Source of the DNA: Myxococcales bacterium
GTDB lineage: Bacteria; Lernaellota; Lernaellaia; Lernaellales; Lernaellaceae
Assembly (NCBI GenBank): GCA_012517325.1
Contig: JAAYVF010000089.1
Span: forward strand, 1 to 62,073
Direction of reading: 5' to 3'
Length of the DNA stretch: 62,073 nucleotides
The notes under the pieces: model-generated
Seen by the model: the letters and a program-made list of their open reading frames with translations, nothing else
Told to the model about the DNA's origin: nothing
Databases searched by the model: none
In this document: piece by piece, positions 7,604 to 56,551 of the stretch
Layout of the letters: each line of letters opens with the position of its first letter
Numbering within the stretch: the first letter of the stretch is position 1
Made by a program: the position numbers and the translations under genes

Positions 7604-8602
7604 TTACTTCGCGGTGTCGTTGTCGTCGTCGTCATCCGTGCCGGTGTCGTTGTCGTCGTCGGAAGTGTCGTTGTCGTCGTCATCGTCGTCATCGTCGTCG
7701 TCGTCCGAGGCCGAGTCCACCGTATAGCCTTCCGACAGTTCGGCGTATTCGTCGTCGGCGTTGATCACCCGCACCGAATAAACCCCCGGCGTGATGCCGG
7801 CCGGGACGGTGGCGGTCAGGATATCGCTGGCCACGGTGGTCACGTCTTCCAGCAGGTTGGGGCCGACGATGACCGTCATGGAATCATCGAAATTGGCGCC
7901 ATAGATGGTGACCGCCGTATCCAGATCGGTCGGCCCATGATTCGGGTCGATGCTGGTGATTTGCAGTTCTTTCGAATTGAGCACCGTATAACCGGCGATC
8001 AACTTCGCCGTGCCGCCGCCGCTGTTGGTCACTTCCACGTCGTAGGTGCCCGGAGTGATGCCGAGCGGGACCGTGCCGGTGATGGTCGTCCCGCTGACCA
8101 CGGACACCGATTCCACGCTGGTGGCGCCGATACTGACAGTGGCGCCGGCGACGAAGTTCGTTCCCGTGATGGTGACGGCCACCGGGACATTGTCCAATCC
8201 CTGATTGGGATCGATGGCGGTGACGGTTAGATTGTTCGGGTTGATGACGGTGAACGCATCGGCGAGGCTGGCTTGATCCAACTTCTCGGTGATGACGGTG
8301 ATGTCGTACAATCCGGCGGCCGTCCCGGCGGGGATGACGGCGGAAAGCAGGCTGCTGGTCACCACGGCCACCGAGGTGCATTCGACGGCGCCGACCAGGA
8401 CGCGCGGCGTGCCGCTGAAATTCGTGCCCGACAGCACGATGGCGATGTCCGCATCGTTCGAGCCGGCGGTCGGCTCGACCTTCGTCAGGGTCAGCGACGA
8501 GGCGCTGCCGGAGGGGAAACGATTGAAATCCCGGCCGCAACCCGACAGGACCAGGTACCCGGCGAGGGCCGCCACCGACAAGATCAACAACCATCGTTTC
8601 AT
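7604..8602 (-). CDS. Lipoprotein with three IPT/TIG domains and a poly-Asp tail
   Basis: 332 aa. The signal peptide ends in a canonical lipobox (LVLSGC), so the protein is probably anchored in a membrane by acylation. Three Ig-like IPT/TIG repeats follow at about residues 38-118, 124-206 and 211-295. Each carries the family signature of a GTNF-type strand and a (P)GxxxGxYDV turn. The last 35 residues are almost all Asp with Asn/Thr/Ser/Gly, encoded by GTC-type trinucleotide repeats on the plus strand. Such tails recur in this genome. Role unknown; IPT domains are common in surface adhesion or carbohydrate-binding proteins. GGGAGC precedes the ATG. Confidence 0.8.
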   Translation of the reverse strand: MKRWLLILSVAALAGYLVLSGCGRDFNRFPSGSASSLTLTKVEPTAGSNDADIAIVLSGTNFSGTPRVLVGAVECTSVAVVTSSLLSAVIPAGTAAGLYDITVITEKLDQASLADAFTVINPNNLTVTAIDPNQGLDNVPVAVTITGTNFVAGATVSIGATSVESVSVVSGTTITGTVPLGITPGTYDVEVTNSGGGTAKLIAGYTVLNSKELQITSIDPNHGPTDLDTAVTIYGANFDDSMTVIVGPNLLEDVTTVASDILTATVPAGITPGVYSVRVINADDEYAELSEGYTVDSASDDDDDDDDDDDNDTSDDDNDTGTDDDDDNDTAK

Positions 8603-8613
8603 GGCCTAGCTCC

Positions 8614-47243: not shown

Positions 47244-47741
47244 TTAGAAGCAGGCGTCGCGCTCCGCAATATACGCCTTTTGGCAGGCGTTGAAGCGGGC
47301 TTGATTCTCCGCTGTTCCATCGCCGCAGGTGACGTTCGTGTCCAGGCACTGGAACCAATGCGCCATCGCCCATTTGAGGCAATCGTTGAAATCGTCCTGC
47401 TGGCCGTCGAGCCAACCGCAGAGCGAATTCTGCTGGGCCGGCGAAGCCCCCCAGCAGTCGCGGTAGTAGGCGCGACACTGCGAGGCGAAGTCGTCGTCGC
47501 CCGTGTAAGGCGGCACGGTGTCGTCGTCGTCGGCCGCGTCGTCGTCGGCCGCGTCGTCATCGGCCGCGTCGTCGTCGGCCGCGTCGTCGTCGGCAGCATC
47601 GTCGTCGGCGGTATCGTCGTCGACGGTTTGATCGTCATCGTTATCGTCGTCATCGTCGTCGTCACCGCAGGCCAGGCCATAGGCCAGCATGACACCGCAC
47701 AAAATCGCCACCCACCACCAAAGGGAAACCTGGCGCAACAT
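47244..47741 (-). CDS. Eight-cysteine exported protein with Asp-rich repeat linker
   Basis: 165 aa from the ATG at 47741 (GGGAGG upstream). Signal segment ending LAYGLAC (lipobox-like but not canonical), then about 55 residues of Asp with a (DDDAA) unit repeated five times. The C-terminal domain of 80 residues has eight Cys with spacing C-x6-C-x11-C-x12-C-x10-C-x6-C-x13-C-x10-C. The next two genes encode the same pattern. It is probably a disulfide-bonded domain held off the membrane by a charged spacer. Function unknown. Confidence 0.75.
   Translation of the reverse strand: MLRQVSLWWWVAILCGVMLAYGLACGDDDDDDDNDDDQTVDDDTADDDAADDDAADDDAADDDAADDDAADDDDTVPPYTGDDDFASQCRAYYRDCWGASPAQQNSLCGWLDGQQDDFNDCLKWAMAHWFQCLDTNVTCGDGTAENQARFNACQKAYIAERDACF
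47521..47597. repeat. In-frame 15-bp tandem repeat coding for (DDDAA)n
   Basis: About five copies of a GCCGCGTCGTCGTCG-type unit (one copy with CAT for CGT), flanked by further GTC trinucleotide runs to about 47670. Because the period is a multiple of three, slippage would change linker length without breaking the frame. Confidence 0.8.
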
Positions 47742-47794
47742 CTCGACATCCTCCCTCCCCGGCGACCAGCCGCGCGGCCCGGGGGTTCGCTCAT

Positions 47795-48157
47795 TTACAG
47801 ACAATCGTCGATTTCGATCTCGTACGCGTCCTGGCAGGCGTTCAGCAGGTCCTGATCCTCGGTCGTGTACTCGCCGTCGCAAGACACGTCCGCCGCGAAG
47901 CAGTCGAACAGGTGCTTGATGGCGTTACGGCCACACTCGGGCACCTCGGTGGCGTCGTCGATCCAGGAGCAGGAATCCTTGGCGTCGGCCGCCGGAAAAC
48001 CCAGGCAATCGGTGAGAAACGTCCGGCAGACCTGGGCATATTCGGTGGCATCCACCTGGGTGTACTTGGTGGCCTTGTTGGACTCGTTTTCACAGGCGAC
48101 GCCAAGCGACAACACCAGCAAACCGATCAAGATAACCAGCGATGTTTTTGTCTTCAT
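47795..48157 (-). CDS. Eight-cysteine small lipoprotein-like protein without Asp linker
   Basis: 120 aa. Signal segment ending LGVAC, a short polar linker, and then the eight-Cys domain with spacing C-x6-C-x11-C-x11-C-x10-C-x6-C-x14-C-x10-C and one final residue. It is clearly paralogous to the neighbours on both sides, but it lacks the poly-Asp spacer. Function unknown; envelope location is likely. Confidence 0.72.
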   Translation of the reverse strand: MKTKTSLVILIGLLVLSLGVACENESNKATKYTQVDATEYAQVCRTFLTDCLGFPAADAKDSCSWIDDATEVPECGRNAIKHLFDCFAADVSCDGEYTTEDQDLLNACQDAYEIEIDDCL

Positions 48158-48170
48158 GCTCTTTATCTAC

Positions 48171-48211
48171 CACAAAAAAAAAGCGCGGCGCAATCGACCG
48201 CGCCGCGCTTT
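48171..48211 (-). terminator. Strong rho-independent terminator
   Basis: An 11-bp GC-rich stem (AAGCGCGGCGC 48181-48191, GCGCCGCGCTT 48200-48210) with an 8-base loop. On the minus strand it is followed by nine T residues. It ends the transcript of the gene at 48228-48587, so the middle lipoprotein gene probably has its own promoter. Confidence 0.9.
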
Positions 48212-48227
48212 GACCGCTGGAACAAAA

Positions 48228-48587
48228 TCAGTAGCAGTTCTGAATTTCCGTGCCGTAGGTGATGAGGCAGTCGGAAACGCCAACAGCATCGCAATCGGTG
48301 CCGCTGAGGCAATCGAACAGGTTGGTGATCGCATCGGAGATGCAAGAGTCGGTCAGGTCGAGGCCGTTCAGGCCGTCGCAATAACCGGCATCATCGATAC
48401 CGCAATCATCGTACCAATTCTGGCATTCGGTCACCGGGTCGCCCGAGCCGTTGTCGTCGTCGTCGCCGGTGGCATCGTCGTTGTCGTCGTTGTCGTCATC
48501 GTCGTCATCGTCGCCGCAAGCGATCGCGACCAGGCCGATGCTCAGAATCGCCGCAATCATCAACAGGAACAATTTGTTCAACTTCAT
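48228..48587 (-). CDS. Eight-cysteine small lipoprotein with poly-Asp linker
   Basis: 119 aa. Signal segment ending LVAIAC, a linker of about 25 Asp/Asn/Gly residues, then the eight-Cys domain: C-x6-C-x7-C-x11-C-x10-C-x5-C-x7-C-x10-C plus one residue. It is the shortest of three paralogues in a row. The conserved x6, x10 and last x10 spacings across all three indicate a common fold. It has its own terminator downstream. Confidence 0.75.
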   Translation of the reverse strand: MKLNKLFLLMIAAILSIGLVAIACGDDDDDDDNDDNDDATGDDDDNGSGDPVTECQNWYDDCGIDDAGYCDGLNGLDLTDSCISDAITNLFDCLSGTDCDAVGVSDCLITYGTEIQNCY

Positions 48588-48783: not shown

Positions 48784-50132
48784 CTATTTTCCGGCGACGG
48801 TCAGCTTGGCAAAGCGAATCGACGGCGCGCCGGTGCCGCCTCGCCAATCCAGATCGTCGGCGATCAGATCGATGTCTTTCAACATGTCGAGCAGATTGCC
48901 GGCGACGGTGATTTCCTGCACCGGGGCGGTCGGTTCGCCGTGCTCGATCAGGAGGCCGCGAGCGCCGCGCGAATATTCACCGTTGACCGTATTGACGCCC
49001 GATCCCATCATCCCGGTCACCAGCAAGCCGCGTTCGACCCCGCGATAGAGATCCGCGGGCGTCGCCTGGCCCGGCTCCAGATACAGGTTGGTCGTACCGA
49101 TACCCGGTAACGAATTGTAACCGCGCGACGCCGTGCCGGTCGGTTTGGCGCCGGCCTTGTTCGCGGTGTAAGTGTCGTACAAGTATTGCTTGAGAACGCC
49201 GTCCTCGATCAGCGCCTGCCGCCGGGTCTTCAGCCCTTCGCCGTCGAACGGCCGGCTGCCGGACCGCCGGTCCAGCGTCCCGTCGTCGATGAGCGTAAAC
49301 CGGGGCGCCGCGATTTTCTCGCCGAGCTGGTCGAGCAGGAAACTGCTTTTTTTATAGATCATGTCGCCGTTGAGGGCGCCGAGCAGCCCGCGGATGAAGC
49401 TTTTGGTCATCTCCGGCGTCAGAATCACCGGCATGATCCCGGAATCGATCTTCCGGGCGCCGAGCATTCGCAGCGCCCGCCGCGCCGCCTCGCGCGCCAC
49501 CGCTTCGGCGTCGCTCAATTCCTGTAAAAAGGTCGTCTGATCGAAATACCATTCCGACTGCTTGTCGCCCTTCTCTCGGCGACGACCTCGACGCCCAGCC
49601 AGGCGTAGGTTTTTTCGAAGACACCGGAAAAACCGGCGCTATTGACCAGGGCGACGCGCTGGACGTAGCTGCCGCTGCCCGCTTCCTGCACCGTCTTAAT
49701 GCGCGGATCGACGGCTAGCGCGACTTTTTCCAGGGCGATCGCCCAATCAGCCAGCTTGTCGCTCGACAGCGTTTCGATCTGCGGATCGAAGATTTGCGCC
49801 CGCTGGTCGATCGGCGCGAACCATTCGCGCGCCGGCAGTCCGTTATGCGGATCGACCGCGGTCGCCGCGGCCACGGCCAGCACCTGTTCGCGCAGCGTGG
49901 TCAGGCCGCGCTCGGACAGGTCGGAAGTGTAACCAAAGCCCAGCCGGCCGCCTTTGAAAACGCGCAAGCCGACGCCTTTGCTCACGGCCTGTTTCAATTT
50001 TTCGACCGCGCCCTCGCGGGCGGTGATTTCGGTTTCCCGGCCCCATTCGTAATAGGCGTCCGCCTGCTCGGCGCCGCCGCGGACGGTCGTTTCCACCAAC
50101 CGGTGAAGCCGTTCGAGATCGTGCTTGTCCAT
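48784..50132 (-). pseudogene. PmbA/TldE-family protein, interrupted by a 2-base frameshift
   Basis: The first part (50132 to about 49578) and the second part (about 49572 to 48784) lie in different frames but together form one protein of about 449 aa of the TldD/PmbA superfamily. Markers are KQAVSKGVGLRVFKGGRLGF in part 1, and GSGVNTVNGEYSRGARGLLI with TVAGNLLDMLKDID in part 2. At the junction a GAGAG run seems to carry an extra AG: removing it restores VVAEKGDKQSEWYFD. PmbA/TldE partners TldD in a heterodimeric protease. The cause may be mutation or an assembly error. GGGAG precedes the ATG at 50132. Confidence 0.85.
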
Positions 50133-50150
50133 CGCTGCCACTCCCTATCA

Positions 50151-50299: not shown

Positions 50300-51837
50300 T
50301 ACGCTTTCGCCGCGCCGACGGTCATGTTGTCCAGGCGAACGTGCGGCAGGCCGACGCCGACCGGCACGCTCTGCCCGTCCTTGCCGCAGGTGCCGATGCC
50401 CGGGTCCAGTTCGGCGTCGTTCGCCACCAGCGTCACGTTTTCCAGCGCCTTCGGACCGATGCCGACCAGCATCGCCCCTTTGACCGGCGCGGTAATCTTG
50501 CCGTTTTCGATGAGGTAAGCCTCGGACACCTCGAACACGAACTGGCCGTTGGCGATATCCACCTGCCCGCCGGCGAACATCTTGCAGTACAAACCCTGTT
50601 TCACCGAGGCGATGACGTCTTCCTTCGTGGGCGCGCCGGGCGCCAGGAACGTGTTGGACATGCGGGGAATCGGAATGTGGCGGAAACTTTCCCGCCGGCC
50701 GTTGCCGGTCGACGCGAAATCGGCGCCCATCAATTGAGCGTTAAGCCGGTCGAAGAGATAGCCCCGCAGCACGCCTTTTTCGATCAGCACCTTGCGCTGC
50801 GGCTCGTTGCCCTCGTCGTCCATGTTGTAACTGCCGCGCCGGTTGGGCAGCGTGGCGTCGTCGATGACGGTGCACAGTTCGCTGGCGACCTTCTGGCCGA
50901 GGCGGCCGCTGTAGAGGCTGGTGCCCTTGCGGTTGAAATCCGCTTCCAGGCCGTGGCCGATCGCCTCGTGCAACAGTACGCCGCTCCAGCCGTTGCTGAG
51001 CACGACGGTTTGTTCGCCGGCCTTGACGTCGATGGCGCCCAGCGTCGCCACGGCGGATTCGGCGGCGTAGCGCCCGATGAACTCCGGGGTGACGCGGTCG
51101 TAAAATTCACTGCCGATCCGCCCGCCCGCGCCGTAGAAACCGGTCCGCCGGTCCTTGCCGTCGCTGGACACGACCATGGCCGACAGGCGGGCCATCACGT
51201 CGCGATCCTCGCGCAGCAGGCCGTCGGTGTTGGCGACCAGCCGGTAGGTGGCGGCGTGGGCCAGCCGGCCCATCACCTGGATCACGCGCCGGTCGAACCC
51301 GCGGGCCGCCGCGTTCATGGCCAAAAGGGCCGCGGCCCGTTTTTCAAACGGGGTGTCGTTGAGGTTCAGCACGATCGGCGACAGCGGCCGCGCCATTTCC
51401 GGTTGCAGCGGGACGGGCCGCCAGGAGCCCTGCCCGCCGGCGATCAACGCCGCCGTTTCGGCGGTGCGCAACAGGGCTTCGGGGGCGAAGTCGTCGGAAT
51501 AGGCGTAGCCGATTTTGATCCCCTTGAGCACGCGGATGCCGACGCCGCGGGAGGCGCCGACCGTCGCGCTGCGAATCTTGTCCTCGTCGAGGGCCGCGTC
51601 GGCGCCCAGCGTGTCTTCCACGTAAACCTCGGCGAACTCGCCGCCGCGCGACATGGCGACCGACAACAATTTGCCGATCAGCGCCGCGTCGAGCGGCAGG
51701 CCGCCGAACGGCGTTTCGGCGGCGGCCAAGGCCTGGAGCGTGGCGCCCGGCGCCAGCCCGGCCGCGAGGCCGGTAACGGCGAGGGTTTGCAGAAATTCGC
51801 GACGGCTGAGGGCCCATGCAGCATGGCTGTCTGTCAT
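50299..51837 (-). CDS. tldD: TldD-family metalloprotease with Tat signal peptide
   Basis: 512 aa. The metal-binding motif HEAIGHGLEADF lies near residue 290, followed by the conserved NMDDEGNEPQRKVLIEKGVL block, so it is catalytic TldD. Residues 10-42 are a classic twin-arginine signal (LSRREFLQTLAVTGLAAGL, then ALA-A), predicting export of a folded enzyme, unlike cytoplasmic E. coli TldD. The pmbA/tldE partner lies downstream but shows no such signal. TldD/E degrade or process peptides such as microcin B17 precursor in enterobacteria. Confidence 0.9.
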   Translation of the reverse strand: MTDSHAAWALSRREFLQTLAVTGLAAGLAPGATLQALAAAETPFGGLPLDAALIGKLLSVAMSRGGEFAEVYVEDTLGADAALDEDKIRSATVGASRGVGIRVLKGIKIGYAYSDDFAPEALLRTAETAALIAGGQGSWRPVPLQPEMARPLSPIVLNLNDTPFEKRAAALLAMNAAARGFDRRVIQVMGRLAHAATYRLVANTDGLLREDRDVMARLSAMVVSSDGKDRRTGFYGAGGRIGSEFYDRVTPEFIGRYAAESAVATLGAIDVKAGEQTVVLSNGWSGVLLHEAIGHGLEADFNRKGTSLYSGRLGQKVASELCTVIDDATLPNRRGSYNMDDEGNEPQRKVLIEKGVLRGYLFDRLNAQLMGADFASTGNGRRESFRHIPIPRMSNTFLAPGAPTKEDVIASVKQGLYCKMFAGGQVDIANGQFVFEVSEAYLIENGKITAPVKGAMLVGIGPKALENVTLVANDAELDPGIGTCGKDGQSVPVGVGLPHVRLDNMTVGAAKA

Positions 51838-55158: not shown

Positions 55159-55551
55159 TCAATCCGGCAACAGCGCCAGACAGGCGTCGATCGCCTCCCA
55201 CAACGCCACCATGTCCTCGTACTGCGCGCAGTCGATCTCGGCCAGACAGGCGAAAAAACCGGCCTGGTAAGGATTGTCGTCCGCGAAAAGCTGCTTGCAA
55301 AGTTCCAGCGTGCTTTCGTAAACCGCGTCGTTGGGAAAACAGCCGGTCGAACCGAAAAACGCATTGGCGTAATCGCGGCAAGGCCCCGGCGGCGCGTCGT
55401 TGTCGTCATCGTCGTCGTCGCCCGACTGGTCGTCGTCGAGATCGAAATCGTCGTTGTCGTCGTCATCGTCGTCGCCGGCGCACGCCGCGATGAAAACCAG
55501 CGCCAACGACAAAACCGCGCCCAACAGGGCCCACAGGATCAGACGTTTCAT
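55159..55551 (-). CDS. Six-cysteine small lipoprotein with poly-Asp linker
   Basis: 130 aa from the ATG at 55551 (GGAAGG upstream). The signal peptide ends in lipobox FIAAC, followed by about 30 Asp/Asn-rich residues. The C-terminal domain has six Cys (C-x12-C-x13-C-x16-C-x5-C-x15-C). It resembles the eight-Cys proteins at 47244-48587 in plan and in the C-x5-C step, but it is more diverged. Its start overlaps the stop of the MauE gene (ATGA), tying it to redox-type partners. Confidence 0.72.
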   Translation of the reverse strand: MKRLILWALLGAVLSLALVFIAACAGDDDDDDNDDFDLDDDQSGDDDDDDNDAPPGPCRDYANAFFGSTGCFPNDAVYESTLELCKQLFADDNPYQAGFFACLAEIDCAQYEDMVALWEAIDACLALLPD

Positions 55552-56027
55552 CCAGTTACCTTCCTTTCCTCCAGGCGGTGATGGAACAACAGCACCAGGA
55601 CGCTGGCGATCAAGAGCGAGCCGTCGCGCAGGAGATACGCTTTGGTGATGGTATCGGCGCCCCGCGGATTGAAGCAGCCGCAGTCGATATCGAGTTGTTG
55701 CCACAGCGCCCACGACAGCGCGATGAGAAACGAGAGATACATCAGCGCCGAAAGCAGGGCGGCCGCTTCGGTCAGTTGATCGACGGGCCGCGCCCCACCC
55801 AGGCCCATGACCAGGAGCAGGCCGACCGACAATTCCGTCCAGGGCAACACCAGCGCCCACAGGTTGACCAGCGGTGTGGGCAGGAAATGATAATTGTCGA
55901 CGGCTAGCGCGAACGCGGCCGGATCGAGGATCTTCGGCGTCGCGGCGACGAGGAACAGCGCGCCCAGCAAGAGGCGCAAAGTCAGCATCACCCACGGAGA
56001 GGCGATCCAGCCCGACAACCGCTTCAT
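55548..56027 (-). CDS. MauE/DoxX-like membrane protein
   Basis: 159 aa with four membrane helices. Motifs RLLLGALFLVAATPKILDP in helix 1 and the Cys pair in DIDCGCFNPRG near residue 118 are typical of the MauE family, which supports disulfide or cofactor maturation of periplasmic proteins. It lies between the rhodanese gene (ATGA overlap) and the Cys-rich lipoprotein gene (overlap). The trio may handle thiol/disulfide chemistry in the envelope; this is inference from context. Confidence 0.8.
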   Translation of the reverse strand: MKRLSGWIASPWVMLTLRLLLGALFLVAATPKILDPAAFALAVDNYHFLPTPLVNLWALVLPWTELSVGLLLVMGLGGARPVDQLTEAAALLSALMYLSFLIALSWALWQQLDIDCGCFNPRGADTITKAYLLRDGSLLIASVLVLLFHHRLEERKVTG

Positions 56028-56551
56028 TGGCCGAACTCGTACAATTTGACCTCCAGCCGTTTCCCCTCGATCGGGTAACCGGCCGCCGACCAGGCGGGCC
56101 AGCCGGCATGGAACAGGTAAACCCGAGTGTACCCCACTTTGCGCAGCAAATCGGCGACGAGCTGCGAACTGTTGCAACCCTCGCCGCTGCAGTAGACGAC
56201 GAGCGGGGTTTCCATGTCGTCCACGCCTTGCAGGACGGTTTCCCATTCGGCGTCGGCGTGATCGTAGTAGAGTAACCGCGCGCCCAGAATGTGACCTTCC
56301 CCGTATTCCTCCGGCGTGCGCGAGTCGATGAACAGCACCCCCTGGTCGTACAACTGCCGGGCCTTGGCCAGACCGACCGCCCAGGGGTCGTTGCCGCCCT
56401 CCTCGGGGGGAACGGTCGACGGCCGGATGAGCGGCAGGCTCGAACCGCGCAGGGCGTTGACGGTGAAGGCGAACGCGGCCGACACCGCGACGATGATCGC
56501 GGCGGTGTAGAGCAAACGAAGCAGCTTGTGATCGGCCGGCAACGGACTCAT
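56024..56551 (-). CDS. Membrane-anchored rhodanese-like protein
   Basis: 175 aa from the ATG at 56551 (AAGGA upstream). One N-terminal membrane helix (LLYTAAIIVAVSAAFAFTV) and a rhodanese domain of about 110 residues with FIDSRTPEEYGEGHI. The active-site loop is CSGEGC (YCSGEGCNSS), which has the catalytic first Cys and a second Cys. It probably transfers sulfur or senses thiols at the periplasmic face. It is the first gene of the rhodanese-MauE-lipoprotein operon and is divergent from nfu. Confidence 0.85.
   Translation of the reverse strand: MSPLPADHKLLRLLYTAAIIVAVSAAFAFTVNALRGSSLPLIRPSTVPPEEGGNDPWAVGLAKARQLYDQGVLFIDSRTPEEYGEGHILGARLLYYDHADAEWETVLQGVDDMETPLVVYCSGEGCNSSQLVADLLRKVGYTRVYLFHAGWPAWSAAGYPIEGKRLEVKLYEFGQ

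Follow-up and report, generated by a model that had tools for sequence, protein, structure and literature searches.

An eight-cysteine lipoprotein domain family found, in the genomes sampled, only in the phylum FEN-1099 (Candidatus Lernaellota)

Cysteine-rich lipoprotein genes in the window

The window, meaning the whole stretch of 62,073 nucleotides analysed here, contains three adjacent genes whose products (P1, P2 and P3) carry a hydrophobic signal ending in a lipobox cysteine at the front and a domain with eight cysteines at the end. The locus comprises the following features.

47244–47741, minus strand: P1, eight-cysteine lipoprotein of 165 aa with a long (D3-A2)n linker (translation, cysteine spacing, family HMM 138.9 bits)
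47247–47492, minus strand: eight-cysteine domain of P1 (HMM match)
47520–47669, minus strand: lipobox cysteine (C25) and poly-Asp linker of P1, CGDDDDDDDNDDD...(ADDDA)n (sequence; C-x-D5 pattern)
47795–48157, minus strand: P2, eight-cysteine lipoprotein of 120 aa without a poly-Asp linker (translation, family HMM, AlphaFold)
47798–48043, minus strand: eight-cysteine domain of P2, with four predicted helices (HMM match, AlphaFold)
48180–48211, minus strand: strong terminator-like hairpin between P3 and P2, with a 14 bp stem and a T-rich tail
48228–48587, minus strand: P3, eight-cysteine lipoprotein of 119 aa with a poly-Asp linker (translation, family HMM)
48231–48440, minus strand: eight-cysteine domain of P3 (HMM match)
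48444–48518, minus strand: lipobox cysteine (C24) and poly-Asp linker of P3 (sequence, pattern site)

Counted directly, the intervals between successive cysteines are 6-11-12-10-6-13-10 in P1, 6-11-11-10-6-14-10 in P2 and 6-7-11-10-5-7-10 in P3, which bears out the three adjacent genes and the spacing described in a first-pass annotation of this DNA. That annotation was also right in placing long aspartate linkers after the signal in two of the three proteins: a long Asp-rich linker follows the lipobox cysteine in P1 and P3, and P2 has none. The single residue that it noted after the last cysteine is present in all three window proteins but does not characterize the family, whose other members end zero to three residues past that cysteine. 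Translation of P1 most likely starts at the ATG at 47741, rather than at an upstream TTG, and P3 probably forms its own transcript, since the strong terminator-like hairpin separates it from P2.

The three genes adjoin purL and tldD/pmbA, and the redox operon that encodes a six-cysteine relative, P4, lies elsewhere in the window; judged by motif, all four proteins start with a hydrophobic signal that leads up to a lipobox cysteine. Two features of the neighbouring genes deserve mention in their own right. A frameshift, in the genome or in the assembly, divides the pmbA gene (48787–50141) into two reading frames, one for domains 1–2 and the other for domain 3, with their junction at 49518. The TldD-family metallopeptidase (50302–51837) has an apparent twin-arginine signal, SRREFLQTLAV, with a Pfam TAT match below cut-off; if this signal is true, the protein would be periplasmic, unlike the usual cytoplasmic TldD.

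The eight-cysteine domain, its distribution and its predicted fold

A profile built from the three window domains matches only the sites of P1, P2 and P3 in their own genome and, across a 60-genome sample, finds clear members only in five relatives (G001, G002, G004, G005 and G006). A second search round, confined to the seven genomes of the phylum, yielded 14 members. All eight cysteines are invariant in the 14 aligned sequences, whose identity to P2 is 19–36%, and the family is defined by these cysteines together with the intervals C1-x6-C2, C4-x10-C5 and C7-x10-C8, one of the 14 members having x11 between C7 and C8. Scored with a family HMM from which each had been left out, P1, P2 and P3 reach 57.7, 55.4 and 46.6 bits, whereas the best of 300 shuffles that kept the cysteines in place reach 20.1, 18.6 and 16.3 bits, respectively; the resemblance is therefore far more than chance would produce.

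Alignment A7 served as the basis for both the structure prediction and a profile search of 386 genomes, in which the family occurs in six of the seven genomes of the phylum and in none of the 379 sampled outside it. The seventh, G003, is 98% complete and yielded no member. A four-member alignment searched against genome contigs found a sole named record, isolate FR_14, and no relative among viral contigs or in a plasmid search. We assign the window to FEN-1099, a GTDB phylum for which the names Ca. Lernaellota and Ca. Podoxiota have also been put forward (PMC13248872), on the basis that G006 falls in the same class as the window and that the isolate name reads as a GTDB label.

Comparison with described families and folds points in the same direction. 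Nothing scored above the curated cut-offs when P1–P4 were compared with Pfam and NCBIfam; weak Pfam matches of P1, P3 and P4, which mostly fall on the signal or on the Asp run, were discarded. The 14 domain members gave only isolated single-member matches in these two databases (best E 0.0027), with no family matched twice, and an hmmsearch of PDB sequences gave no match at E<=10. Foldseek comparison of the eight-cysteine model with the PDB returned nothing significant (best E 2.2, TM at most 0.40) and only chance-level matches in a viral structure library, the six-cysteine model likewise had no significant match in a fold search, and chance-level resemblances to Tai4/Rap2a and KinB were not used. 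These results support a new domain family, restricted to FEN-1099 as far as sampled and present beyond the window in five relatives, in agreement with the earlier suggestion of a lineage-specific module belonging to no known family.

Members occur in several arrangements. Tandem arrays of diverged copies are found in the window (three genes) and in G004 (three genes, contig C34); a 332-aa protein carries the domain mid-chain (L049, 8339–9334), another has the domain, a long Asp spacer and then a further domain (L050, 8198–9244), and a G001 member (C23) has a membrane anchor without a lipobox. As a separate observation, an eight-cysteine lipoprotein gene stands divergent to a conserved subtilase gene in G004, G005 and G006 (L044, 5697–7424; L046, 6854–8428; L037, 4434–5378); the G005 subtilase is an S8 peptidase with a PKD domain. 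Genes for a TMEM260-like protein O-mannosyltransferase and a GT2 protein follow the eight-cysteine gene in both G005 and G006.

AlphaFold, run with 14 sequences, predicts for the P2 domain, with confidence, four helices (residues 2–13, 18–29, 36–52 and 61–81; mean pLDDT 90.9). The P4 domain is again predicted as four helices (pLDDT 84.7) and ends soon after the position of C7. In the joint alignment, the cysteines missing from the six-cysteine group are C4 and C8, and their joint loss suggests that they form a disulfide. From hairpin geometry in the P2 domain (domain numbering), C6 would face C25 in helices 1–2, and C37 would face C81 and C48 would face C70 in helices 3–4; with these positions opposed in two predicted helix hairpins, C1 would pair with C3 and C5 with C7, so that the likely scheme is C1–C3, C4–C8, C5–C7 and, by elimination, C2–C6. 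The description of the domain as disulfide-rich, put forward from the sequence alone, is thus likely to be right, judging from the paired loss of C4 and C8, the helical-hairpin geometry and the redox operon described below. Besides the cysteines, conservation is limited to core hydrophobic residues and the surface varies, which argues for a scaffold with a binding or structural role and against an enzyme.

Two known architectures invite comparison. As in CHCH (twin CX9C) proteins, two predicted antiparallel helices each bear a pair of evenly spaced cysteines (C4-x10-C5 on one, C7-x10-C8 on the other), an arrangement that suggests two bonds across the hairpin. Unlike in CHCH proteins, the interval is 10, not 9, in nearly all members, there are two extra helices and four extra cysteines, the setting is the bacterial envelope and not mitochondria, and no Pfam CHCH match was found. 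Plant eight-cysteine-motif proteins (nsLTP, 2S albumin) share a length of about 70–90 aa, four helices and eight cysteines; the present domain contains no adjacent cysteines (CC) or CXC and gave no Pfam or significant fold match.

The six-cysteine subfamily, its operon and the poly-aspartate tether

P4 is the third gene of an operon in which stop and start codons overlap, the start of P4 overlapping the MauE stop (ATGA).

56024–56551, minus strand: membrane-anchored rhodanese with the active-site loop CSGEGC, first gene of the operon (Pfam Rhodanese, 2.2e-16)
55548–56024, minus strand: MauE/DoxX-family redox-associated membrane protein with a DIDCGCF motif (Pfam MauE, 2.3e-24)
55159–55551, minus strand: P4, six-cysteine relative of 130 aa with a poly-Asp linker (translation, subfamily)

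The P4 protein has the same architecture as P1–P3, and its mature domain contains six cysteines (C-x12-C-x13-C-x16-C-x5-C-x15-C). Its subfamily occurs in five genomes, namely its own and G001, G004, G005 and G006; one weak match from beyond the phylum, in G089 (E 0.003), was discarded because the 444-aa reading frame that holds it differs in character. The profile search with the eight-cysteine domain did not report P4, and the first-pass annotation's view of it as a diverged relative finds its support elsewhere, in two bridge proteins and in a profile comparison with shuffle controls. One bridge protein, L061, is from G006 and the other, L108, from G004; both share C1-x12-C2-x13-C3 with the six-cysteine group and retain the C4-x10-C5-x5-C6...C7-x10-C8 of the eight-cysteine group. 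Against each of the two HMMs L061 reaches 22 bits, exceeding all 300 cysteine-kept shuffles of each. The profile–profile score between the two groups is 29.2 with the six-cysteine sequences alone and 40.7 with the bridges added, against maxima of 18.3 and 17.3, respectively, when all but the cysteine columns were shuffled. Judged from these sequence comparisons, P4 is a true relative that forms a subfamily of its own.

The order rhodanese, MauE, cysteine-rich lipoprotein is kept in six genomes (G000, G001, G002, G004, G005 and G006). MauE is present in all seven genomes of the phylum, and the gene that follows it encodes a six-cysteine lipoprotein in G000, G001, G004, G005 and G006. In G002 an eight-cysteine member fills this slot, adjoining the same glycosyltransferase genes, and it is the eight-cysteine protein closest to the six-cysteine profile (16.5 bits against a shuffle maximum of 9.5). 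The family-free G003 has a rhodanese–MauE pair with no cysteine-rich lipoprotein gene behind it, and a second MauE that adjoins a DsbA-like thioredoxin. The constant third place after rhodanese and MauE in six genomes points to a tie between the operon copy and thiol/disulfide chemistry; the literature searched yielded no relevant work that connects MauE with rhodaneses or disulfides. MauE (PF07291) is known from methylamine utilisation, where the disulfide-rich client is the small subunit of methylamine dehydrogenase. There, as here, a MauE-type membrane protein is encoded beside a cysteine-rich exported protein, but the partners here are a rhodanese and a small helical lipoprotein, and no methylamine dehydrogenase subunit was found among the neighbours examined.

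The poly-Asp spacer, by contrast with the first-pass annotation's treatment of it as part of the eight-cysteine family, proves to be a general tether of lipoproteins in this phylum. Sites of the form C-x-D5 number 29 in the window's own genome, 63–101 in each of G001, G004, G005 and G006, nine in G003 and zero in G002, and outside the phylum they occur once each in two of 53 other genomes. The stricter C-x-D6 has 281 sites in the seven phylum genomes against four in 379 others, the backward control giving one. In the own genome, a hydrophobic N-terminus precedes 28 of the 29 C-x-D5 sites (L073–L101, the exception being L082), and the cargos are diverse. This combination of N-termini, cargos and phylum enrichment makes the tether a property of the phylum's lipoproteins in general, and we rejected it as a hallmark of the family, as it precedes many unrelated cargos; nor is it essential to the eight-cysteine family, since P2 lacks such an acidic run and C-x-D5 is absent from G002 altogether. 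Other cysteine-rich poly-Asp lipoproteins with a different spacing (for example C-x9/10-C...C-x3-C; L077, L083, L084, L088, L094, L099 and L049, 9379–11368) appear to be further undescribed families of the phylum. The window also encodes, at 7607–8605, a lipoprotein with repeated Ig-like (IPT/TIG-type) segments whose poly-Asp run is C-terminal instead of N-terminal.

In Bacteroidota, an acidic run just behind the +1 cysteine drives lipoproteins to the cell surface, with the consensus SDDDD in B. fragilis (PMC5080379). In P1, P3 and P4 a run of six or seven Asp starts at position +3 or +4, and P2 has none. By analogy with these Bacteroidota lipoproteins, the window proteins are probably surface-exposed, although P2, without an acidic run, may differ; the surface module suggested in the first-pass annotation is plausible. 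The resemblance to the Bacteroidota lipoprotein export signal (LES) lies in an acidic run behind the lipid-bearing +1 cysteine, mostly from +3, common to many lipoproteins of one phylum (PMC5080379). It differs here in that position +2 is usually Gly, the run is much longer (five to tens of Asp, often in D-D-D-A-A repeats), the phylum is another one, and surface export would follow by analogy.

Possible roles of the module

The reading that we favour, with a probability of roughly 0.6, is that P1–P3 are exported, lipid-anchored, disulfide-locked four-helix modules, of a family confined to this phylum in the genomes sampled, that are probably displayed at the surface and serve as binding or structural scaffolds. 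Signal peptide II and the lipobox would anchor each protein through its N-terminal cysteine, and the Asp-rich tether would hold the domain off the membrane, most likely on the outside of the outer membrane. The eight cysteines would pair as four disulfides (C4–C8, C1–C3, C5–C7 and the remaining C2–C6), giving a stable module whose role would be binding or structural, not enzymatic. The operon homologue, one in each of six genomes, would be a probable client or partner of the rhodanese/MauE thiol/disulfide module, and the remaining copies would be dispersed, expanded paralogues.

Alternatively, although we consider this unlikely, the domain might itself be redox-active, its cysteines serving as a shuttle for electrons or sulfane sulfur that links the rhodanese, MauE and targets in the periplasm; the proteins would then be thiol carriers and not passive scaffolds. 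The invariant place after rhodanese and MauE in six genomes, the translational coupling in the window and the MauE set beside a DsbA-like thioredoxin in the family-free genome are all consistent with such a role. Nevertheless, the domain lacks CxxC and any other motif typical of reactive dithiols, its eight cysteines are equally invariant, as expected of structural bonds, and most eight-cysteine copies lie outside the operon.

A less probable proposal is that cysteines and aspartates together bind a metal (Cu, Zn or Ca), making these proteins envelope metal buffers comparable to bufferins, which are cysteine-rich copper-binding RiPPs accompanied by DoxX genes (PMC12452194). Like bufferins, the present proteins are small, cysteine-rich and exported, with a DoxX-family gene in the cluster; they are also very acidic, and the MauE protein weakly matches the HvfX DoxX-like family (18.4 bits, below the cut-off of 80). 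Unlike bufferins, they have invariant cysteines in a predicted fold, spread over facing helices as for disulfides, and the annotated operon neighbours are the rhodanese, MauE and LPG_synthase_TM, with neither the bufferin-defining MNIO enzyme nor DUF2063 among them.

A role for the diverging tandem copies in kin recognition or in a contact-dependent system, as lipoproteins of recognition or immunity, is very improbable: the diverged arrays in the window and in G004 would fit, as would a weak Foldseek likeness to the helical immunity proteins Tai4 and Rap2a, but the E-values (2.9 to 5.9) are not significant and no gene for a toxin was seen next to these copies. Convergence of unrelated small cysteine-rich secreted proteins on a similar spacing, which the low pairwise identity might suggest, is hardly credible, being already contradicted by the shuffle controls and by clear homologues across genera.

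Returning to the lipid-anchored scaffold, a bolder extension seems to us possible but doubtful. The poly-Asp tether could be the phylum's own surface-export signal, with an evolutionary origin separate from that of the Bacteroidota signal, displaying a disulfide-locked twin-CX10C four-helix module that is oxidised via a dedicated rhodanese–MauE pathway. If true, tether, module and rhodanese–MauE would together be a bacterial equivalent of the CHCH/oxidase arrangement of mitochondria.

With this family, a phylum with almost no experimental data gains a new protein domain whose fold and disulfide pattern can be tested, and in six genomes a MauE-type redox protein is linked to one particular small cysteine-rich protein. 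The tether may in turn be a phylum-wide lipoprotein sorting signal, since hundreds of lipoproteins in the seven genomes appear to start with Cys-x-poly-Asp, and with it a simple reporter could be used to test how lipoproteins cross the outer membrane.
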